This document shows, piece after piece, positions 2,060-13,443 of a stretch of DNA of 64,000 nt (position 1 is the stretch's first letter; each line of letters opens with the position of its first letter). Source of the DNA: Candidatus Moanabacter tarae (lineage in GTDB: Bacteria > Verrucomicrobiota > Verrucomicrobiia > Opitutales > UBA2987); NCBI GenBank assembly GCA_003226295.1, contig CP029803.1, positions 862,211 to 926,210 of the forward strand, written 5' to 3'. The position numbers and the translations under genes are program-made. The notes under the pieces were generated by a model. The model was not told the DNA's origin. It made no database searches and was given only the letters and a program-made list of their open reading frames with translations.

Positions 2060-2713
2060 ATGGCTAATATTTTCCCCAAGTGGGCCAATACGGTCCCGCT
2101 AAAGGTTCTTTTAGGTCTTCTTTTGTTGGTTGGAGTTATTTCAGGAGGAATAACTTACTACGCTACACCAAAATATACTCGCGTAGGCTATCAGCCTAAG
2201 CAACCAGTAGCGTTCGATCACAATCTTCATGTTGAGCAAGTTGGTCTGGATTGCCGCTATTGTCATACATTCGTTGATCGATCTGAACATTCGAATGTGC
2301 CAGACGCGGGTACTTGTATGAACTGCCACTCCATGATTAAACAGAATAGTCCTGCCTTAGCTCTCATTCGGGAAAGTTACAGTTCAGGCGAACCAATACC
2401 TTGGGTACGAGTGCATAAAACTCCCGACTACGTGTTCTTTAACCACTCTGTTCATGTTAATAGGGGTATTAGTTGCGTTGAGTGTCATGGGCAGGTGAAC
2501 AGGATGAAGGAAGTTTACCACGCAAAATCCTTGGGCATGGCATTTTGTCTGGATTGTCACCGTCATCCTGATAAAGCAGTGAGGCCTCTTGAAAAGGTCT
2601 ATGATTTGGATTGGAAGGCAACTAACGTTAACGCCCAAATTGAAGAAGGAAGTGAACGTGTAAAAAAATGGGAAGTAAATGCTCCCTTAAGTTGTTCGGG
2701 ATGCCATCGGTGA
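2060..2713 (+). CDS. actA: Alternative complex III subunit ActA, pentahaem cytochrome c
   Basis: Membrane-anchored multihaem cytochrome c of ACIII, the quinol:cytochrome c oxidoreductase that replaces the bc1 complex. One N-terminal hydrophobic segment (about residues 12-32) precedes five CxxCH haem motifs at residues 65-69, 86-90, 139-143, 163-167 and 212-216. Five is the number expected for ActA, and extra FNH and HNLH histidines can serve as distal ligands. The last haem site sits two residues from the C-terminus. It is the first gene of a collinear plus-strand array and its end overlaps actB, implying translational coupling. The ATG at 2060 puts the anchor at the N-terminus. Confidence 0.93.
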   Translation: MANIFPKWANTVPLKVLLGLLLLVGVISGGITYYATPKYTRVGYQPKQPVAFDHNLHVEQVGLDCRYCHTFVDRSEHSNVPDAGTCMNCHSMIKQNSPALALIRESYSSGEPIPWVRVHKTPDYVFFNHSVHVNRGISCVECHGQVNRMKEVYHAKSLGMAFCLDCHRHPDKAVRPLEKVYDLDWKATNVNAQIEEGSERVKKWEVNAPLSCSGCHR

Positions 2714-5700
2714 AGAAAAATAAACAAAGTATAAGTGAGACCCGGCAAGGAAAGCTTGGGAGACGTTATTGGAAGAGCTTAGATGAATTGGCGCAGACTC
2801 CAAATTTTCGTCAATGGGTTGAACGTGAATTTCCTCAAGGGGCTTCGGAGCTGGATGGATCGAACCGACGTCATTTCCTTAAAATCATGGCAGCATCTTT
2901 TGGTGTTGCTGGCCTCGGGCTTTCTGGGTGCCGCAGGCCAGAGCAGTATATACTTCCACATTCAAAACAGCCAGAATTGGATATACCGGGCGTACCTATA
3001 AATTACGCTACCTCTTTTCCTCGGAGCCGAGATAACATTCCCCTCGTTGTTGAAACGCATCAGCATCGGCCCACTAAAATTGAAGGAAATGGAATCTACG
3101 AACCCTATCGGGGGGCGACGGATCTTCAGGCGCAATCGAGTGTTCTCGATCTCTACGATCCCGATCGGGTGAAACAAAGTAGCCGGAGGACAACCACCTT
3201 AAGTCGAGCTCAGGTAAATGACTTTTTGAGTTCCCTTTCTAGAAAGCATGAATCAACTGGAGGCCAAGGTATCGCTTTCCTCGCTGAGGGATCGACCTCC
3301 CCCACCAGGAAACGTCTCGTATCGGCTATCAAGAAAAGGCTTCCGCGTGCCCTTTGGGCCGAATTTGATCCTATAGACCACGACCGATCCGAAATAGCAG
3401 CAGAACGTTTATTTGGAAGACGTCTGCGTCCGCTTCCAAATTTACAAAAAGCAAAGCGGATTCTCTCATTGGATTGTGACTTTTTAAATTCTGAACCGGG
3501 TCATTTAAGGAATGCGGCTGATTATGCGTCCACCCGTCGTGTTAGTTCTCCCCGTGAAGCGGAAAAAATGAGCCGGCTTTATCAGGTTGAGAGCACCTTC
3601 AGCTCAACGGGAATGATGGCGGATCATCGACTTCGGATTTCGAGTAGTCGAATTGGCAGTATTGCCGCACATTTGGTTGCTGAAGTCCTCGATCTTACCA
3701 ATCGTGAAGCTTCCCTATCTCAACTTCTAAGGAAAAAGGCAGCGGGTCTAGGAAAAGATGAGGATTGGCTGAAGAATTGTGCTAAGGACTTAGTTCATCA
3801 TAGTGGCAAAGCCTTGGTTATGGTTGGGGGACATCTACCGATTGCGGTTCATGAACTAGTTCACTTTGCTAACGAATTGCTTGAAGGGTTGGGAAAGACG
3901 GTAGAATATTTGGAAGTGCCAAGAACAGAGGCGGAATCTATCTATGATCTTGTGGATGCTATTGATAGAGGCCGGGTGGAAACACTTATTGTTTTGGGTG
4001 GGAATCCAGCTTATAATGCACCAAATGATTCCAATTGGAAAGATGCGCAGAGGAAAGTACCTGAGGTCGTTCGCTATGGATACTATTTTGATGAGACTTC
4101 GCTTCTTGCAGAATACCATATCGCAGCTACCCACTATCTCGAATCTTGGAGTGATGGGAGGACCTTCGATGGAACCTTGGTCCCAGTGCAACCTATGATT
4201 CATCCTCTCTTTGATGGCTATCAGGAGATCGAAGTCATGGCGCGTCTTGCGGGATTGAAGGAAACGGACCCGTACTTTCATGTTTCGGAGACTCTCAAAA
4301 CGGTCACGGCAAATCGGGATTCGGAAATTGGGTTCGAAAAATTTTTGAGCGATGGGTATCTCCCAAATTCCGAGTACGAGTCCGTATTACTGAACGCTAA
4401 TCTGAATCGGATTCGTAAAGTTGCGAGTAGCTTTAAACTGGATGGCACTCCTCCTTCTATAGAAGATTTAGAGGTCCGCATTGACCCCGACAGCAGGGTC
4501 TCTGATGGCCGCTTTAACAACAACGGGTGGTTGCAAGAGTGTCCTGATCCTCTAACTAAGATCACCTGGGATAACGCTATATTAGTAAGCCCTAAATTGG
4601 CCCTGGAACTTGGTTATGACCCGGGTACAGACCGGTCTCCAGTAACCAAAATTTTTGACAGTTTCATCGCATCCTCGAGACGATACAATCAATTTGAACA
4701 GGGTCGCGAAGTAGCGCCGATGGTGGCTCTGACTATTGACAATACAACGGTGGAAGGTCCAATTCATATTCATCCAGGAATGGCTGACTATACGGTGGCA
4801 GTAAGCCTTGGTTATGGAAGAGAAAAAGTTGGTAGAGTTGGCAATGGAACTGGGTTTAATTTCTATCCCTTTTTCGGAGGTAAAACACCTGGCATTGCCA
4901 GAGGAGCAAAAATTGACCTAACTGGTCATAGCTACCTCCTGGCTAATACTCAAGAGCATTGGTCGATGGAGGGCCGGGCTATCATTCGCGAGGGCAACCT
5001 TAAAGAGTTTGAGGAGAATCACGATTTTGTTGAGACTATTGGGATCGAGTCTCACTCTCCACCGGTTTACGGGAAGGACAAGAATCTTTCACAACAAGCA
5101 AAAGCGCTGAATCAACCTCGTGGAGAATCCCTTTACAAAACCCCAACTTTTGGAGGCGCACAGCAATGGGGTATGAGCATCGATTTAAATACTTGTACTG
5201 GATGCAACGCGTGCGTCATTTCCTGCCAAAGTGAAAACAGTATCCCAATTGTGGGTAAAGATCAGGTAACTCGTGGTCGTGAAATGCATTGGATCCGATT
5301 AGATCGTTATTACGCAGGCGGTGATCTTAATGAGAGTAAACAAACGATACCCAACGATCCTCAGGTTACTGTCCAGCCTATGCTATGCCAGCATTGTGAA
5401 ACCGCGCCTTGTGAACAGGTTTGTCCGGTAAACGCTACCGTGCATGATGATGAAGGTCTTAATGTAATGGCCTACAATCGATGCGTTGGAACACGATATT
5501 GTTCCAATAATTGTCCATATAAGGTACGGCGTTTTAATTTTTTCGATTGGAATAAACGAGAAATTGGCGAGGCTTACAAGGGTCCAATGGGGAAGATTGC
5601 AAATTCCGATTTAGGAGAATTGCAGAAGAACCCTGATGTTACTGTAAGAATGCGAGGAGTTATGGAAAAGTGTACCTTTTGCCAGCAGCGCATTCAGGAG

Positions 5701-6075
5701 GCGAAAATCAAACAAAAGGTTAAGGCACGTGATTCTAATGACGTTAAGGTGCCTGATGGAGTTATCAAAACTGCATGTGAACAAGTTTGTCCTACCGAAT
5801 CGATTGTGTTCGGGGACGTTGCTGATCCTGAATCTAGAGTCTCAAAAAGGAAGAAATCCGAACTTAATTACTCCGTTCTCGGATATCTCAATACGCGACC
5901 GCGAACCACCTATTTGGCAAGAATAAGGAACCCCAATCCTGAAATGCCGGACTATCATGAGTATCCTCTTAGTCGAATGGAGTATGAGGAAAAATCCGGA
6001 CATGGAGTGCATGATTCGCATGAAGGACATAGTTTGGATAAATTGAGCAAGGGAAATGGGCATGGCGACCATTGA
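2701..6075 (+). CDS. actB: Alternative complex III subunit ActB, MoCo-like/4Fe-4S protein
   Basis: Large periplasmic iron-sulfur subunit of ACIII, about 1,124 residues. The N-terminus has the extended Tat signal typical of these proteins: [10 protein letters not shown], then ~35 residues, then NRRHFLK with a hydrophobic core ending in LSGC. A molybdopterin-oxidoreductase-like domain follows; ActB proteins are not known to bind molybdopterin. The C-terminal third carries four cluster-binding cysteine groups: [37 protein letters not shown] and CTFC paired with CEQVCP. The ATG at 2701 overlaps actA by 13 bases; an in-frame GTG at 2710 (GTGA overlap with the actA stop) and an ATG at 2668 are alternatives, but 2668 would overlap actA by 46 bases. 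Confidence 0.93.
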
Positions 6076-7477
6076 CGAGGCAGGATCGGGAGCGAGAGCT
6101 GTTCTCAACGAGGTCAGACCGACCTCCATGCCGCGACGGCCTCTTGTTGAGAACAACAGGGATTTCCACTGGATCACGGAAAAAATCTGTGGGATTGTTG
6201 AGGGGGAAACCCCCCGTTGGTGGTGGATATCATTCCTTGTTGCCGGATTCGTCACAACATTTCTGGGTGCTGGTGTCATTTACTTGGTGGCATCGGGAGT
6301 TGGTGTATGGGGTCTTAGGGGATCCGTTTATTGGGGATGGGCGATTGTCAATTTCGTATGGTGGATTGGCATTGGGCATGCTGGAACATTGATTTCTGCT
6401 GTTCTCTGCCTTTTGAGACAAAAGTGGAGGACATCGATTAATAGGGCGTCGGAAGCTATGACTATTTTCGCTGTAATGTGTGCTGGTCTCTTCCCCTTAT
6501 TTCACATTGGCCGGGTCTGGTTTGGCTGGTGGCTTCTTCCCATTCCTGTAGCCCATGATATCTGGCCAAATTTCCGAAGCCCCTTGGAGTGGGATGTTTT
6601 TGCTGTATCCACCTATTTTGCAGTTTCGTTCCTTTTTTGGTACATGGGAATGATCCCGGATCTTGCGACTATCCGAGACCGTGCTAAGAATATTTGGCGC
6701 AAGTATATTTACGGACTTTTAGCAATGGGCTGGAGAGGATCGAACAGACATTGGCGAAACTACGAAATGGCTTATTTGCTTCTTGCTGGGCTTAGTACTC
6801 CACTTGTTCTCTCTGTCCATTCGATAGTTTCCTTTGACTTTGCCGTCGCCAATTTGCCTGGATGGCATACAACCATATTTCCACCATATTTCGTCGCTGG
6901 GGCAATTTTTTCCGGATTCGGAATGGTCCTTACTCTGGTCCTGCCCCTTCGAGCGCTTTTGGGACTGCATGATTTAGTTACTCAATACCACATCGACTGT
7001 ATTTGTAAAATAACTCTGGCGACTGGTAGTATGGTGGGATACGGATATGCCATGGAGTTTTTTATCTCTTGGTATGGCGCTAATCCTTACGAGGGATTCG
7101 CTTTTCTTAATCGGGCATTTGGCCCATACTGGTGGGCTTATATTACTATGCTTTCATGTAATGTCATATCACCCCAGTTGTTTTGGTTTCGATGGGTTCG
7201 GGAGAGATGGTGGTTAGTGTGGCTAATTTCAATAGTGGTCAACGTTGGGATGTGGTTCGAACGTTTCGTGATTGTCGTGACAACTTTAGCCAATGAATTT
7301 ATTCCAGCTAATTGGGACTATTTTACACCCACGGTAGTAGACATATTTACTTTTATAGGGACCATGGGATTTTTTGCCTGCTGTTTCCTCCTGTTCATTC
7401 GCTTTCTGCCTTTCATGGCATTTGCTGAAATAAAAGCAGTCATTCCACAGGCTGATCCTCACAAGGGAGATCATTAA
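6056..7477 (+). CDS. actC: Alternative complex III subunit ActC, NrfD/PsrC-type membrane protein
   Basis: Polytopic quinol-interacting subunit of ACIII, 473 residues with about ten hydrophobic helices. It belongs to the NrfD/PsrC family. Characteristic features are the WWW-rich first helix region near residue 55, the [11 protein letters not shown] stretch near residue 105 and the FHIGRVW stretch near residue 145. Family knowledge places quinol oxidation and possibly proton translocation in ActC and ActF. The start overlaps actB by 20 bases; an in-frame ATG at 6062 is equally possible and would follow a GGG-rich stretch. actD begins 2 nt after its stop. Confidence 0.93.
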
Positions 7478-7479
7478 GA

Positions 7480-8013
7480 ATGGTTGAAGAAACAAAAGGA
7501 CTGGTAGCACTCTTCGATACGACTGAAGATGTTTATCATGCTGCTGAGAAAGTTCGAGATGCGAATTATAAGAAATGGGATGTTTTTACACCTTTCCCTA
7601 TCCATGGAATGGATGAGGCTATGGGTCTCAGCCGTTCAAAAGTTCCGATCTTTTCATTTGTAGGTGGTATGACTGGATTTTTAGCAGGCATGGCCTTAGC
7701 ATGGTTTACCGGTGAATTCGACTATGCCCTCATAGTGGGTGGGAAACCCTATTTTAGTCCCATATTTCCCTTTCCTGTTGCTTATGAACTTATGATTTTG
7801 TTGGCGGCCTTCGGTGCTTTTTTTGGAATGTTCATAACTAATCTTCTGCCACGACATCATCACCCGGTTATGAGTTACAAAAATTGGCATAGGATAACGG
7901 ATGATAAATTCCTCATCATGATTGAGTGCGAGGACCCGAAATTCGATCTCGAGAAAACCAGAGATTTTCTGGTGGAAATTGGTGGTACTGATATATCGTC
8001 AGTGGAAGACTAG
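7480..8013 (+). CDS. actD: Alternative complex III subunit ActD (DUF3341)
   Basis: A 177-residue ACIII subunit of the DUF3341 family. An N-terminal soluble part begins LVALFDTTEDVYHAAEKVRD. The family block with TPFPIHGMDEAMG follows at about residues 37-49, then two hydrophobic hairpin helices (about 57-77 and 102-123) and a short cytoplasmic tail with a histidine cluster (RHHHP). ActD carries no cofactor and packs against ActC. It starts 2 nt after actC and ends 5 nt before actE, so it is clearly inside the same transcript. Confidence 0.92.
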   Translation: MVEETKGLVALFDTTEDVYHAAEKVRDANYKKWDVFTPFPIHGMDEAMGLSRSKVPIFSFVGGMTGFLAGMALAWFTGEFDYALIVGGKPYFSPIFPFPVAYELMILLAAFGAFFGMFITNLLPRHHHPVMSYKNWHRITDDKFLIMIECEDPKFDLEKTRDFLVEIGGTDISSVED

Positions 8014-8018
8014 GATAC

Positions 8019-8627
8019 ATGAAGCTATTTTTATCTATAGTTGTTTTCCTCGTCGTTGTTACCGTATCTATTATGGGCGTCCGAGGCTCACGTTCAGAAA
8101 AACCTCCCCTTGAGGTCTTTCCTGATATGGATCGCCAGCCTCGACTTAAGCCGCAAGGGGGTAGTGGATTCTTTCTTGATGGAAGAGGCGATCGACCCTC
8201 CGTTTCAGGGACTGTCCCCCTCGGCTCATTCCATGAAGACGAATACTATGCGACGGGAAGGAAGGATGGAGAATATGGAAGCGGATTCCCCATCGCTGTT
8301 ACTCAGGAATTCTTGGAACTAGGTAGAGAGAAATACGCGATTTTTTGTGCTGTTTGCCACGGTGAAACTGGGGATGGAAATGGGATTACGAAGAAGCATG
8401 GTATGACATTGACTCCTTCTTATCATGATGAAGTCCGACGTAGTCTTTTGGAAGGAGATATCTACAACACTATCAACAAAGGAAAAAACAATATGGGGCC
8501 CTACGGGCATAAGCTTCGAATTGAGGAACGATGGGCAATTGTCGCTTACTTAAGGGTTCTTCAAAGGGCACGAAATGCATCGATCGAAGATGTCGCTGCC
8601 CATGCGAGGGGGGACTTAGGGTTATGA
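8019..8627 (+). CDS. actE: Alternative complex III subunit ActE, monohaem cytochrome c
   Basis: Membrane-anchored monohaem cytochrome c of ACIII, 202 residues. The N-terminal hydrophobic segment (about residues 3-20) is followed by a linker, one CAVCH haem motif at residues 110-114 and a likely axial Met159 in NNMGPYG. In known ACIII structures ActE sits next to ActA and passes electrons to the terminal acceptor. No lipobox cysteine is evident, so anchoring is probably by the uncleaved helix. The stop shares bases with the start of actF (ATGA overlap). Confidence 0.92.
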   Translation: MKLFLSIVVFLVVVTVSIMGVRGSRSEKPPLEVFPDMDRQPRLKPQGGSGFFLDGRGDRPSVSGTVPLGSFHEDEYYATGRKDGEYGSGFPIAVTQEFLELGREKYAIFCAVCHGETGDGNGITKKHGMTLTPSYHDEVRRSLLEGDIYNTINKGKNNMGPYGHKLRIEERWAIVAYLRVLQRARNASIEDVAAHARGDLGL

Positions 8628-9922
8628 GTTTCGATCGCGCTCAGCAATTTGGTAATACAGTCGAAGGACCAAATGATAAGCGGAACTATCCTCTGATCTC
8701 ATTAACTGTGGGGATAATTGGTTTGTTTGTCTCTTTTGTGGGAATCTATATAGCCTGGAATAGCGGGGACTCCCGGCCTCTTCTTGGGTGGCTTATGGGA
8801 TTTACCTACTGGTTTATGGCCTCGATCGGGATGCTTTTCCTTATAATGATATTCTACGTTTTTGATTCCGGTTGGTCCGTAGTGGTTCGTCGACAAATGG
8901 AACATGGAGTTGGAGCGATTAAGTGGTTAGGTCTAATGTTTTTACCTCTTATTCTGTTCTCCTGGTTCTATAAGGAGAATTCCGGAATTCTTTGGTCGTG
9001 GATGAATCCTGACAATCTCCTTCCCGGTGGTCATACTATTGGTGAGGATTCAATTTTTCAGGCGAAGTCGAGCTATTTGAATCTTCCTGCCTTCACGCTC
9101 CGCGCTGTGCTCTATTTTGTTGTTTTTATAGGGTTGGCTGAAATATTGAGGTTTTGTTCTTTTTCGCTTGAAAAAGATGGTGACCCAAAATGGATGCACA
9201 TAGCACATAATACTTCAGCCATTGGCATTATTCTCTGTGCTCTAGCCGCAACCTTTGCTTCAGTCGACTGGTATAAGGCACTAGAATATCACTGGTTTTC
9301 GACCATTTACGGAGTCTGGTTTTTTGCCGAAAGTATGAGAGCAGGAATCGCAGTTCTCTTGCTCGTCTGTTTTTTAAAGGTAAGTAAAGGAAGTCTTAAG
9401 GGGATTTTTAATAGGTGTCATAGTCATCATTTGGGTTGCCTGATGCTGACCTTTACAATCTTTTGGGCCTACATTAGTTTCTCCCAGTATTTCCTCGTAT
9501 ATAACGCCAACATACCTGAGGAAACTTTTTGGTACAATATTCGGGAGCTGAATCCTGATGGTACAAAAAGCAGCTGGTGGTGGGTGAGCATGACCCTCGT
9601 GTTTCTTCACTTTTTATTTCCTTTCATCTATCTACTGTTTTACAAAAATAAGTTCGGGAGACGTGTGATTTTTATTTCATTTTGGATCCTGTTTTTTCAT
9701 GCCTTTGACATCTATTGGAACATCCTACCGGAAAAATTATCCGTAGATCCGGATACTCTTGGATACATTGTCCGTCCTTTCGGTGTAAGTATCTGGGATG
9801 CGAGTACCTTTATTGGAGTCGGTGGCATCTGTATTTGGGCCTTCCTCACCAGCGCTGCTAAAGTAAAATCGATCCCTATTCGGGATCCTCGTATCGAGGA
9901 ATCTATCAATGCCCATGAGTGA
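8624..9922 (+). CDS. actF: Alternative complex III subunit ActF, NrfD-like membrane protein
   Basis: Second NrfD-like polytopic subunit of ACIII, about 432 residues with ten predicted helices. It lacks cofactor motifs, as expected. The frame is open 93 bases further upstream, but the ATG at 8624 overlaps the actE stop as ATGA, the classic coupled arrangement, and the upstream extension is Cys/Arg-rich and unlike the family. The C-terminus overlaps the next small gene by 14 bases. The six act genes are in the standard ABCDEF order. Confidence 0.92.
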   Translation: MSFDRAQQFGNTVEGPNDKRNYPLISLTVGIIGLFVSFVGIYIAWNSGDSRPLLGWLMGFTYWFMASIGMLFLIMIFYVFDSGWSVVVRRQMEHGVGAIKWLGLMFLPLILFSWFYKENSGILWSWMNPDNLLPGGHTIGEDSIFQAKSSYLNLPAFTLRAVLYFVVFIGLAEILRFCSFSLEKDGDPKWMHIAHNTSAIGIILCALAATFASVDWYKALEYHWFSTIYGVWFFAESMRAGIAVLLLVCFLKVSKGSLKGIFNRCHSHHLGCLMLTFTIFWAYISFSQYFLVYNANIPEETFWYNIRELNPDGTKSSWWWVSMTLVFLHFLFPFIYLLFYKNKFGRRVIFISFWILFFHAFDIYWNILPEKLSVDPDTLGYIVRPFGVSIWDASTFIGVGGICIWAFLTSAAKVKSIPIRDPRIEESINAHE

Positions 9923-10226
9923 TAAGTTAAATCAAAACCAAATGAATCGTATGCATTTCAGTCTTTCCGTAGCGGGAATCATTCTAGCTATTTTGATGTT
10001 CGGATTCATTATTCTTATAGCCTATTTGCCTACCCGACCGAAACCTGTCGATCAGGATCTTATTGACCAACGTCTTGCTATATTGGCTGAGGTGAATTCA
10101 AAACAACATTCTCTTGCAAACTCCTATGGCTGGGTAGATCAAACAAAGGGAGTGGTTCGTATCCCTATCGAACGTGCCATGGAGTTGACCGAGAGAGATT
10201 TAAGGGGTGAGGCTTTGAGAGAATGA
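9909..10226 (+). CDS. Small single-helix membrane protein following actF
   Basis: A 105-residue protein with one hydrophobic helix (about residues 18-41) and a soluble tail ending in a block of the form VRIPIERAMELTERDL. It overlaps actF and is therefore very likely co-translated. I recognise no named family with certainty; short one-helix proteins occur as accessory ACIII subunits and next to cytochrome oxidase genes. A role as a small structural subunit of ACIII or of the following CcoN-like complex is inference from position. Start is either the ATG at 9909 or the one at 9915. Confidence 0.75.
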   Translation: MPMSDKLNQNQMNRMHFSLSVAGIILAILMFGFIILIAYLPTRPKPVDQDLIDQRLAILAEVNSKQHSLANSYGWVDQTKGVVRIPIERAMELTERDLRGEALRE

Positions 10227-10424
10227 AATGGGAGAATATTTTGCATGCTTGGTTGAAAGCATAGGGCCATTTTACGCGGTTATTAAACTTACTTTTAACA
10301 GTTTCTAGGAAGTTATTTATAAAGAGATCGAGATCGGGATTAAGACAGTTAATTTCAATGCCTGCCACTTGTATCTTAATTCCTAAAGTCCTTCAGGTTT
10401 TTGATTGTTTGACGACACAGAGAA

Positions 10425-11915
10425 ATGGCGAGTAACCCAGAATTATCGAAAGTTTCTTTAGACCAAAGGCTACGGTGGCCGACTGTCCATTTTTTTCTTG
10501 CTGCAGGGAAATGGCTAATCGTTGCCTCGTTGTTTGGATTGATATCATCTATTCAGGATATAAACCCTTCGTTTTTGGCCGGGTTTGAGTGGCTCACATA
10601 CGGAAAGACAAAGGCAGTATTCATGAATAGTTTGATCTATGGGTGGGGGTTTAATGCTGCCTTTGGAGTTGTTCTTTGGATGATGGCCCGTCTCTGCGGA
10701 TCCGTAGCATGTAAGTGTAATATTCTTTTCGTTGGAGGCGTCTTTTGGCAGCTTGGGTTGATCGTTGGGGTAGTGGGTATTCTTATCGGCGATATGACTT
10801 CAGTTCTTTGGCTAGAAATGCCCACTTATGCGGCCGGAATACTACTTGTTTCTTATACTGTTATGGGGACTTGGGGTATAATTACCTTCCTCCATCGTCT
10901 TACCAGAAACGTATATATCGCGCAGTGTTATTTTCTGGGCGCCCTTTTTTGGTTTCCATGGCTCTATACCGTCGCTCAGATGATGCTCTTCTGGTGGCCG
11001 GTTCGAGGGACATTGCAGCCGCTCCTTAATTGGTGGTACGTACAGGGTGTGATAGGGATGTGGTTTGCTCCGATCGCCGTCGGGGCAGCTTACTATTTAA
11101 TTCCAAAAATACTCGGTAAAAAGATTTTGCATTACAACTATGCGATTGCCGCATTCTGGCTTTGGGCGCTTTTTTCAAGCTGGGCGGGAATGTCTGATCT
11201 CGCGGGAAGCCCAGTTCCTGCTTGGATCGTGACATCCGGAATCATTGCCTCGGTTCTTCTGCTTGTACCAATAGTGATAATCTCCGTAAATCTGCATGGC
11301 GTCAGTATTTTCAATCTTGGGAAAATAAGGAAAAATCCAAGTTTAAGATTTATTGTATTTTCGTCTGTTTTCTTCTCGATTCTTGGACTCCTTAGCGCCC
11401 TGATATCCTTGCGTACTGTTAGTAGCGTACTTAGGTTTACTTATTTCACCGAAGGCTATTTTTATCATGCCTTATTGGGCTTCTATACAATGGCGATGTT
11501 CGGTTCGATTTACTTTGTTTTACCTCAACTACTGGATCGAAAGTGGTCATCGAATTCGTTACTTGGTTTTCACTATTGGGTAAGTGGAGGTGGAATTAGT
11601 GTTGTGCTGATTTCCCTCTACCTTGGGGGTTGGCTCCAGGGTATTCAGGTCTCGAGCCTAAACGAAGAGGGGGTTGCATCATATTCAATTTCCGAGATCT
11701 CTAGATTTGCGAGTACCTGGCTATTCCTAAAGTTAATTGGCATTGCTGCCTTTGTTTTGGGTAATTTCGTTTTCGTATTTAATCTGATGTCGATGCTTCT
11801 TTCGTATCTAGGTGATGGAGTATTGAAGCAGTTTCAATTCGAGATTGATATGGAACCCTTTAAAGAAAAAGCGGCTAGAATTCTTTATGGTACACGTTAC
11901 GACCGACAGATATGA
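10425..11915 (+). CDS. ccoN: CcoN-family (cbb3 oxidase subunit I-like) protein lacking haem and CuB ligands
   Basis: A 496-residue, roughly 12-helix protein of the haem-copper oxidase subunit I family, closest to CcoN. Family landmarks align well: WWY at 203-205, SWAG at 252-255, an FT..T.G block at 338-344 and YFVLP at 363-367. At the ligand positions, CcoN's WWYGHNAVG reads WWYVQGVIG (His to Gln); WAGPHHLHY reads WAGMSDLAG (three His lost); and the helix-10 GHVH reads GYFY. The helix-2 low-spin His is also absent (AVFMN near 64-68). Binding of haem b, b3 or CuB in the usual way is therefore unlikely. It ends in an ATGA overlap with the CcoO-type gene. A structural or regulatory role in an ACIII-linked complex is inference. 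Confidence 0.85.
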   Translation: MASNPELSKVSLDQRLRWPTVHFFLAAGKWLIVASLFGLISSIQDINPSFLAGFEWLTYGKTKAVFMNSLIYGWGFNAAFGVVLWMMARLCGSVACKCNILFVGGVFWQLGLIVGVVGILIGDMTSVLWLEMPTYAAGILLVSYTVMGTWGIITFLHRLTRNVYIAQCYFLGALFWFPWLYTVAQMMLFWWPVRGTLQPLLNWWYVQGVIGMWFAPIAVGAAYYLIPKILGKKILHYNYAIAAFWLWALFSSWAGMSDLAGSPVPAWIVTSGIIASVLLLVPIVIISVNLHGVSIFNLGKIRKNPSLRFIVFSSVFFSILGLLSALISLRTVSSVLRFTYFTEGYFYHALLGFYTMAMFGSIYFVLPQLLDRKWSSNSLLGFHYWVSGGGISVVLISLYLGGWLQGIQVSSLNEEGVASYSISEISRFASTWLFLKLIGIAAFVLGNFVFVFNLMSMLLSYLGDGVLKQFQFEIDMEPFKEKAARILYGTRYDRQI

Positions 11916-12598
11916 GGAGCTTTAATCTTATCGCTTCAGGAATCTTCGTAGCCCTTGGGATCTCCTGGTTAGGAATTGTTATCACTGGGCATATTCAATT
12001 TGGGGATCTTCGCGTGATGACGGAAAGCTATCAGTGGGATAAGGAGAACGAGGTATTCATGGTAGAAGTGCCCACAGAGGGCCAGGAACGCTATCCGGCT
12101 ATTATGGACGGAAGATCGCGGCAGGGAAAAGATGTATACATAAGCTTAGGGTGTGTGGTTTGCCATACGCAGCAAGTTAGTAGAGTGGGCCTGAATACAG
12201 ATATTGCTAGAGGGTGGGGAATACGGGAATCCCTTGCTAGAGATTACATTCGGCAGGAACGTGTCCTTATTGGTTCTCAGAGAATCGGGTCTGATCTGGC
12301 TCATGTTGGAAGCCGTCTTGCGTCCCGCGAGCAGACCCACCTCCTTATCTACAATCCAACACTATTGGATGAGCAATCGTTAATGCCTCCCTATCCATTT
12401 CTCTATGAAAAAAGAAAAATTCGCCAAGGAGTTCGATCATCTAATGCTTTGACTTTCCCGAATGGTTATGAACCTGAGGAGGGTTACGAAATTGTACCCA
12501 GTATGCGAGCTGAGGCTCTAGTTACTTATCTACATTCTCTTAAGATCGACTACCAGTTGCCTGAGATGTTTTTTAATCAACCGATTAATGAAAAGTGA
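11912..12598 (+). CDS. ccoO: CcoO-type membrane-anchored monohaem cytochrome c
   Basis: A 228-residue homologue of CcoO (FixO), the monohaem cytochrome subunit of cbb3 oxidases. An N-terminal helix (about residues 5-27) precedes GKDVYISLGCVVCHTQQV with the haem motif at Cys81-Cys84-His85. The family block GSQRIGSDLAHVGSR follows at about 121-135, then SLMPPYPFL with the axial Met158. Unlike its CcoN-like partner, all cofactor residues are present, so it should carry one c-type haem on the periplasmic side. It overlaps the CcoN-like gene by 4 bases. CcoO normally receives electrons for CcoN; here the acceptor is unclear. Confidence 0.88.
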   Translation: MRSFNLIASGIFVALGISWLGIVITGHIQFGDLRVMTESYQWDKENEVFMVEVPTEGQERYPAIMDGRSRQGKDVYISLGCVVCHTQQVSRVGLNTDIARGWGIRESLARDYIRQERVLIGSQRIGSDLAHVGSRLASREQTHLLIYNPTLLDEQSLMPPYPFLYEKRKIRQGVRSSNALTFPNGYEPEEGYEIVPSMRAEALVTYLHSLKIDYQLPEMFFNQPINEK

Positions 12599-12786
12599 AG
12601 ATAGAGGAGATCTCTCTCAAAAGTGAGTATACATTATCGTGAATCAATTTCCCACAAACTGTAGTTCTCTTATTATCCCCTAAGGCTAGGGCAGGTGCAC
12701 AACAGGATTCTTTTATATATTTATTTTTAGTCTTATAATTTCCTATTTCTAATTTGTTAAAATATTTTTGTCGCTCCGGAAGAAGA

Positions 12787-13443
12787 ATGTCTAAAAGAGA
12801 CGAAAGCGAAAAGCACAACGAAAATTGTGGCTTCGGTGATAATGAACTTCATGAGGTTCATGAAGCCAAGAGCATCAATCGGAATGGATCGGGGTTTGGT
12901 TCTTTCCCTTTTTTGATTGTTCTAATTTTTTTATTTTCAGTTCTCCTTTGCTGGGCTGGGTTCTATTTTGTCAATTATAGTGGCGGGTTCGAGGCTTTGG
13001 CGCACAACGAGGCTTTCGATCCTAGTGGGCCGCTGCCCAAGCCTCCTCCGGAGGAATCACTTTTTGAAATTGGACGGGAGGTGTATGTTAATTGTGTTGC
13101 CTGCCATCAAACAACTGGCCTCGGTATTCCCGGAGTATTTCCACCTCTTGCTGGATCTAAATGGGTTCTGGGTAGTTCGGAAAAAGTGCCGGTCATTATT
13201 TTGCATGGAATTTTTGGTCCAATAGAGGTTAAAGGCCAGGTCTTTAACTCAGCCATGCCCCCCTTAGCAGAAGTGCTTTCCAACAAGGAAATTGCTGCGG
13301 TCACGACCTTTATACGTACAAATTCAGAATGGGGGAATGAGGCAAAAGAAGTGACTGAGGAAATGGTTTCCATTCTTCGAGATCAGTACGGAGTCCGTGG
13401 TATGTGGACGGCAGAGGAGCTTTCAAAGAAATATCCCGAATAG
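12787..13443 (+). CDS. Membrane-anchored monohaem cytochrome c
   Basis: A 218-residue class I cytochrome c. A hydrophilic, acidic N-terminal tail of about 38 residues is followed by one transmembrane helix (about 39-63), a Pro-rich linker and a cytochrome domain. The domain has CVACH at residues 103-107 and a likely axial Met157 in NSAMPPL. It sits where CcoP would be, but has only one haem, so it resembles a small cytochrome or the cytochrome tail of some oxidase subunits II. The ATG at 12787 was preferred over one 33 bases upstream because GGAAGAAG lies just before it. It is the last gene of the respiratory array. Confidence 0.85.
   Translation: MSKRDESEKHNENCGFGDNELHEVHEAKSINRNGSGFGSFPFLIVLIFLFSVLLCWAGFYFVNYSGGFEALAHNEAFDPSGPLPKPPPEESLFEIGREVYVNCVACHQTTGLGIPGVFPPLAGSKWVLGSSEKVPVIILHGIFGPIEVKGQVFNSAMPPLAEVLSNKEIAAVTTFIRTNSEWGNEAKEVTEEMVSILRDQYGVRGMWTAEELSKKYPE

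Follow-up and report, generated by a model that had tools for sequence, protein, structure and literature searches.

A CcoN homologue without haem or copper ligands in an alternative complex III operon, and recurrent ligand loss in its verrucomicrobial family

The operon for alternative complex III (ACIII) in the 64,000-nucleotide stretch of Candidatus Moanabacter tarae analysed here (referred to as the window) contains a gene whose product is, as far as its sequence can tell, homologous to CcoN but devoid of haem and copper ligands. To our knowledge, subunit I is the catalytic core of the known haem-copper oxidases and NO reductases. In the family of ACIII-linked C-type oxidases of Verrucomicrobiota to which this protein belongs, here labelled X, that core seems to have been hollowed out many times in parallel with the shell kept, leaving a natural series from intact to stripped proteins. 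The repeated losses and the kept place in the operon suggest that X has been retained for a structural role, as an adaptor of the respiratory chain. We lean towards an adaptor that carries no cofactor itself and attaches haem-c subunits to ACIII, in many cases along with an aa3 oxidase acting as substitute.

The X gene of the window (Table 1) starts with ATG and codes for 496 aa in an uninterrupted frame; the source genome is a single contig of 2.63 Mb. Its product matched the Pfam COX1 model (E = 1.7e-41) and scored 121 bits against the NCBIfam ccoN equivalog, whose cut-off of 583 it did not reach. In phmmer comparisons with four solved CcoN (E = 1e-32 to 2e-21) all ligand blocks aligned without gaps, and a multiple alignment (P. 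stutzeri numbering) gave the replacements H60>F, H207>Q, Y251>S, H257>S, H258>D, E323>L, H345>Y and H347>Y. The protein thus retains none of the six residues that bind haem b, haem b3 and CuB (ligand string FQSDYY), and Y251, the active-site tyrosine cross-linked to a CuB histidine, is a serine. The whole protein contains six histidines (H22, H157, H236, H291, H348 and H383), among which H348 adjoins the ligand positions; these positions were mapped as sequence columns.

These results uphold an earlier note on this DNA, which had described a full-length CcoN homologue with gap-free family landmarks and every haem and copper ligand replaced, encoded together with intact cytochromes (CxxCH is kept in the downstream haem-c genes). 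They also support its view that the protein would be unable to reduce O2 by the known mechanism, and the actual protein is presumably free of these cofactors. The structure prediction proposed in the same note returned a full CcoN fold (AlphaFold2 with 48 related sequences, mean pLDDT 92.1, pTM 0.91), with cbb3 CcoN chains as the top Foldseek matches (3mk7 and 8smr, TM 0.86-0.92, rmsd 1.7-1.9 Å).

An alignment shift as the source of the apparent loss, which the note had raised against its own reading, is ruled out, as homologues ~38-45% identical to the window protein hold the six ligand histidines in identical columns. Open frames, conservation and dN/dS rule out a sequencing error or a pseudogene, and a chance oddity of one genome is ruled out by losses in 88/169 family members that focus on the catalytic columns.

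The ACIII operon and three further genes occupy 2060-13443 on the + strand, in the order actABCDEFG-X-ccoO-like-cyt c (Table 1). Homologues of ActA to ActF are present in order, A to E being recognised by Pfam and ActF by position and homology. The stop codon of X and the ATG of the following gene overlap at 11912; together with the gene order, this suggests co-transcription. The ccoO- and ccoP-like proteins both score under their NCBIfam cut-offs. Both the sequence of the window protein and its place, after actG and before the ccoO- and ccoP-like genes, assign it to family X. We chose the start of actF at 8621, where the mechanical ORF begins at 8531; the TTG start of the ccoP-like gene is that of the mechanical ORF listing, and actG-like is our own label for 9909-10226. 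Within the operon no Rfam match was found, and promoter and terminator scans gave hits no more numerous than in shuffled sequence. In Verrucomicrobiales-like loci the slot of the actG-like protein is filled by a cytochrome c gene (e.g. L185:10932-11720).

Table 1. Genes of the ACIII-X operon in the window (positions of the whole stretch)
Gene and product	Coordinates	Strand	Support
actA, membrane-anchored cytochrome c, five CxxCH	2060..2713	+	Pfam Cytochrome_C7
actB, large subunit with 4Fe-4S domain	2668..6075	+	Pfam Fer4_7, Fer4_11; homologous actB in related operons
actC, NrfD-type quinol subunit	6056..7477	+	Pfam NrfD, E 1.3e-17
actD	7480..8013	+	Pfam ActD (alternative complex III), E 3.9e-64
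actE, monohaem cytochrome c, one CxxCH, conserved M159	8019..8627	+	Pfam Cytochrome_CBB3
actF, membrane subunit	8621..9922	+	No Pfam match; position and homology across operons
actG-like, small membrane protein	9909..10226	+	No family match; place conserved in most related operons
X, predicted ligand-free CcoN homologue	10425..11915	+	Pfam COX1, phmmer, alignment, model
ccoO-like, monohaem cytochrome c, CxxCH and Met158 kept	11912..12598	+	Pfam FixO, E 2.8e-15
ccoP-like, membrane-anchored monohaem cytochrome c, CxxCH and Met168 kept	12754..13443	+	Pfam Cytochrom_C, E 6.5e-10

Relatives were sought in a sample covering one phylum with one genome per species, genome tallies by state being compiled by hand and one contig scan covering the best 80 of 405 relatives. 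Homologues were found in 37 of 52 order-level genomes, and C-type matches of all sorts in 122/388 genomes of the phylum. Removal of true CcoN and other outgroups left 169 non-redundant X, of which 81 have all six histidines and the tyrosine and 88 are stripped, having lost two to six histidines (none left in 21, one in 49, two in 10, three in 6 and four in 2). Y251 is a tyrosine in 81/81 intact and 1/88 stripped proteins. Intact X score 229-254 bits against the ccoN model, likewise under the cut-off of 583, whereas a true CcoN of the same order passes with 631 bits, which makes family X a distinct branch of the C-type oxidases; E323 is missing from the family even in intact members. A NO reductase as ancestor is not favoured, since intact X keep the active-site tyrosine.

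The columns conserved at ≥95% in intact X and <50% in stripped X include the six histidines, Y251, R57, E122, W203, Y317, H337 and R437, and several of these (R57, E122, H337 and R437) presumably hold haem propionates or calcium in CcoN. Elsewhere, W, G, P and Y positions are 85-100% conserved in stripped X, and D13, W30, G60, G73, W108, P133, W204, P263, P265, G390 and G402 are 92-100% conserved. Such a pattern is what one would expect if cofactor binding was lost and the shell kept.

Ligand states run from intact through partial (HHARHH, YHRHHH, HNQRYH) to fully stripped. One X (L058:4647-6149, HHARHH) has lost only H257, H258 and the tyrosine and is sister to an intact protein, apparently an early stage of loss. 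In four others (L121, L126, L157 and L159; HNQRYH or HNTRYH) all CuB and haem b3 ligands are lost and H60 and H347, which we take to be the pair binding low-spin haem b, are kept, so that these X may possibly act as haem-b-only electron relays. The same four proteins speak for the idea that stripped X still bind haem through migrated or alternative ligands and keep some redox function. At least one of the six histidines is left in 67/88 stripped X, and the window protein has tyrosines at both helix-10 ligand positions (Y345 and Y347) with His348 and Met67 nearby. We nevertheless find this most improbable: no further histidines exist in the window protein beyond the six listed above, the opposite haem-ligand position is a phenylalanine, and the presumed propionate or calcium holders are gone (R57>K, E122>L, H337>R, R437>K). 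Ligand strings moreover vary by clade with no conserved substitute.

The number of losses was estimated from two kinds of trees, with counts from quick searches. An X protein tree with the ligand columns removed, in which long branches meet, gave at least 5 state changes. For comparison we used ActA, B, C and F, operon genes outside the altered constraint: the concatenated 71-row tree gave 16 changes, at least 13 of them forced by well-supported branches, and a 46-row ACIII tree gave 13, at least 11 forced. The changes are read as losses because the outgroups have the ligands and regain of six histidines is implausible. A single ancient loss, with the Opitutales losses forming one clade, was rejected on the ACIII genes (AU test, P = 4e-44). 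The X tree unites most stripped Opitutales copies, which may reflect long-branch attraction, or fewer losses together with exchange of X between operons; if such exchange occurred occasionally, the true number of losses would lie between the X-tree and ACIII-tree counts. The ACIII of the window groups with its family relatives L055 (GHSNNQ) and L047 (YHRHHH) and also with L060 (FFNYHY), beside the intact L022, and these loci together form what looks like a local series of progressive loss. Hence the idea that the losses define one conserved clade always beside ACIII holds in its second part, nearly every stripped X with flanks covered adjoining ACIII genes, but not in its first, the losses being recurrent across the phylum.

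We then considered whether stripped X are still maintained. Their frames are full-length and open across many families, and gene order is the same in intact and stripped loci. dN/dS, computed for pairs of relatives (the window gene has no close relative and lies outside this measure), was mostly 0.05-0.25 for stripped pairs and ~0.02-0.11 for intact pairs; judged by these ratios, stripped X is under purifying selection, with a constraint that is relaxed yet clearly present. The haem-c partners keep CxxCH in nearly all stripped loci (81/81 for the ccoO-like protein O, 72/73 for the ccoP-like protein P, 79/79 for ActE and 69/69 for ActA). The O haem appears to have a methionine as its sixth ligand; this residue is present in 75/75 intact loci and in the window, and replaced in 27/81 stripped loci, by cysteine in 18 and by another residue in 9 (e.g. 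the Verrucomicrobiales-like L185:13305-14039). That X could be a decaying passenger, functionless, bound to disappear, and persisting between needed genes only because ccoO is translationally coupled to it, seems unlikely. Such coupling would agree with the overlap between the stop of X and the start of the ccoO-like gene, and stripped X do evolve faster than intact X, with longer branches as well as higher dN/dS; yet dN/dS stays far below 1, structural residues and full-length frames are preserved as described, and, in a search directed at X, stripped ACIII operons without a recognisable full-length X were very few.

The other oxidases encoded by X-bearing genomes bear on the role of the family. 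The window genome has one other haem-copper oxidase, of A type, with CoxA, CoxB (with its CuA motif) and CoxC at G000:C1 ~383-387 kb; in Opitutales, the window included, the aa3 genes lie away from the X operon. Next to these aa3 genes, and together with two genes for cytochromes c, the same genome codes for a 623-aa protein (L237:3176-5047) that is similar in its N-terminal part to subunit I of cytochrome bd (PF01654, E = 4.7e-25). CoxA was found in 65/65 sampled genomes with stripped X, and X is intact in all four sampled X genomes without CoxA (G012, G022, G186 and G266), an association with P = 0.007 by Fisher's test, kinship not being corrected for. For G038, a fragmented genome (91% complete) with a stripped X, no other oxidase was found, possibly reflecting its incompleteness. 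Intact X is the only haem-copper oxidase in G012 and G186, where no match to cytochrome bd was found either. With no other oxidase at hand in these two genomes, it is probable that intact X functions there as the terminal oxidase. Both genomes (loci L019, L223, L238 and L255) are small, 1.3-1.7 Mb, and 98-99% complete.

A CoxA, CoxB or CoxC homologue lies directly downstream in 27/54 testable stripped loci compared to 1/40 intact ones. These 27 loci belong mostly to Verrucomicrobiales-like families, with the Cox genes on the same strand after X-O-P, and a wider view of G289 and G111 revealed a complete X-O-P-CoxA-CoxC-CoxB order. Intact X with downstream Cox genes occur in L120 and in G295 (L242), the combination expected of an intermediate.

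These observations are brought together by the adaptor that we favour. As part of this explanation, we believe that the ancestor of family X was probably a C-type oxygen reductase that was linked to ACIII and functional. In the lineage of the window, and repeatedly in Verrucomicrobiota, respiration would have shifted to an A-type (aa3) oxidase, and the sites for haem b, haem b3 and CuB would have disappeared from X. The protein would have been kept as a 12-helix-type membrane adaptor by which the haem-c subunits O and P stay attached to ACIII. Menaquinol would be oxidised by ACIII, and electrons would pass through the haems of ActA and ActE to the docked haem-c proteins, and from there either to a soluble cytochrome c or straight to aa3, whose genes in Verrucomicrobiales belong to this operon; they would leave via haem c, bypassing X. 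We infer the adaptor role from the retention of X, and the electron route is put forward with the same reserve: the loss of the sixth-ligand methionine in a third of stripped loci (27/81) indicates that relay through O is not universal. Counting against the adaptor, the aa3 linkage is concentrated in one part of the tree.

Retention in the ACIII operon would also suit a role in assembly, regulation, or ion or quinol transfer, X then serving cytochrome maturation, sensing, or a proton or quinol path which a full 12-helix-type membrane protein could house. We regard this as decidedly unlikely. Among what we take to be the polar residues of the C-family proton path (S240, Y317, Y251, Y223 and N289), S240 is an alanine in 57/88 stripped X and Y317 and Y251 are mostly lost, with Y223 and N289 kept, and neither a sensor domain nor a novel conserved polar cluster was seen. 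The earlier note had offered a membrane scaffold, a proton channel or a quinol-interacting part: the first is the best supported of the three, the second is disfavoured as the proton-path residues are not retained as a set, and for the third no quinol-site evidence was found.

Genomes of one family (f30, 2.2-2.5 Mb) code for pmoA. Their X has diverged strongly (ADAHQT or SESHFV), and the genes for O, P and CoxA/C come after it. By strong inference, these genomes are those of methanotrophic Verrucomicrobiota. In the f30 genomes examined, the haem-copper oxidases besides X are A-type, B-type (GFHHQYTDPG) and NorB-like (GLGHHYFW); a search for a further C-type subunit at E = 1e-30 gave none. In G117 (L216 ~6800-12500) a nosZ/nosD/nosF cluster is inserted between actF and X; a nos cluster is similarly placed in Methylacidiphilum caldifontis IT6, for which aa3-type and cbb3-type genes are described beside ACIII (PMC11102522). 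Methanotrophic Verrucomicrobiota are credited with a cbb3-type oxidase beside ACIII in PMC6688271 and PMC8498564, and the former ties this oxidase to high oxygen affinity. The published methanotroph 'cbb3' appears to be the stripped X protein. Because the pmoA genomes examined yielded no C-type subunit other than stripped X, the oxygen-affinity explanation of PMC6688271 may need revision. For annotation in general, a high-affinity oxidase may be absent from genomes that are called cbb3-positive on account of X or of the neighbouring O and P. In a broader statement of the adaptor reading, a haem-copper superfamily protein would have been converted repeatedly to a metal-free structural subunit of ACIII-based respiratory supercomplexes, a pseudo-oxidase bridging ACIII and an A-type oxidase, and the 'high-affinity cbb3' of methanotrophs would be this same dead protein, no C-type oxidase being present there; for us, the case for this statement is evenly balanced. 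With the X series one could ask whether it is for purely structural reasons that a respiratory supercomplex requires a partner shaped like complex IV.

No description of a ligand-free CcoN or of an ACIII-linked pseudo-oxidase was found in the open literature searched, and the nearest known systems each differ from X. The 'bd-like oxidases' of Nitrospinae and Nitrospira are likewise respiratory membrane subunits with replaced metal ligands, one CuB histidine being changed to glutamine and the high-spin haem histidine to phenylalanine (PMC8026999), but they belong to another protein family, have only two ligands replaced, and are described with no statement of ACIII linkage. ACIII is physically coupled to an A-type oxidase in the supercomplex of Flavobacterium johnsoniae, with contact via CoxIII (Sun et al. 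2018, from the summaries in PMC8361435 and PMC8552683). These summaries describe no C-type subunit between the complexes; in Verrucomicrobiales the corresponding gene order has the aa3 genes after ACIII-X-O-P. CcoN of cbb3 oxidases (P. stutzeri 3mk7 and P. aeruginosa 8smr) shares with the window protein its fold, gap-free ligand blocks and downstream CcoO- and CcoP-like partners, whereas the window protein lacks the six ligands, Y251 and E323 and is encoded with ACIII. The C-type oxidase that is linked to ACIII in Opitutaceae and in methanotrophs of the phylum (PMC8498564, which mentions it citing Refojo et al. 2010; PMC6688271; PMC11102522) has the same operon as the window protein and belongs to the same family. 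The parts of these three papers covered here treat X as a working cbb3 oxidase and do not mention missing ligands, whereas half of family X, the identified methanotrophs included, is without them.
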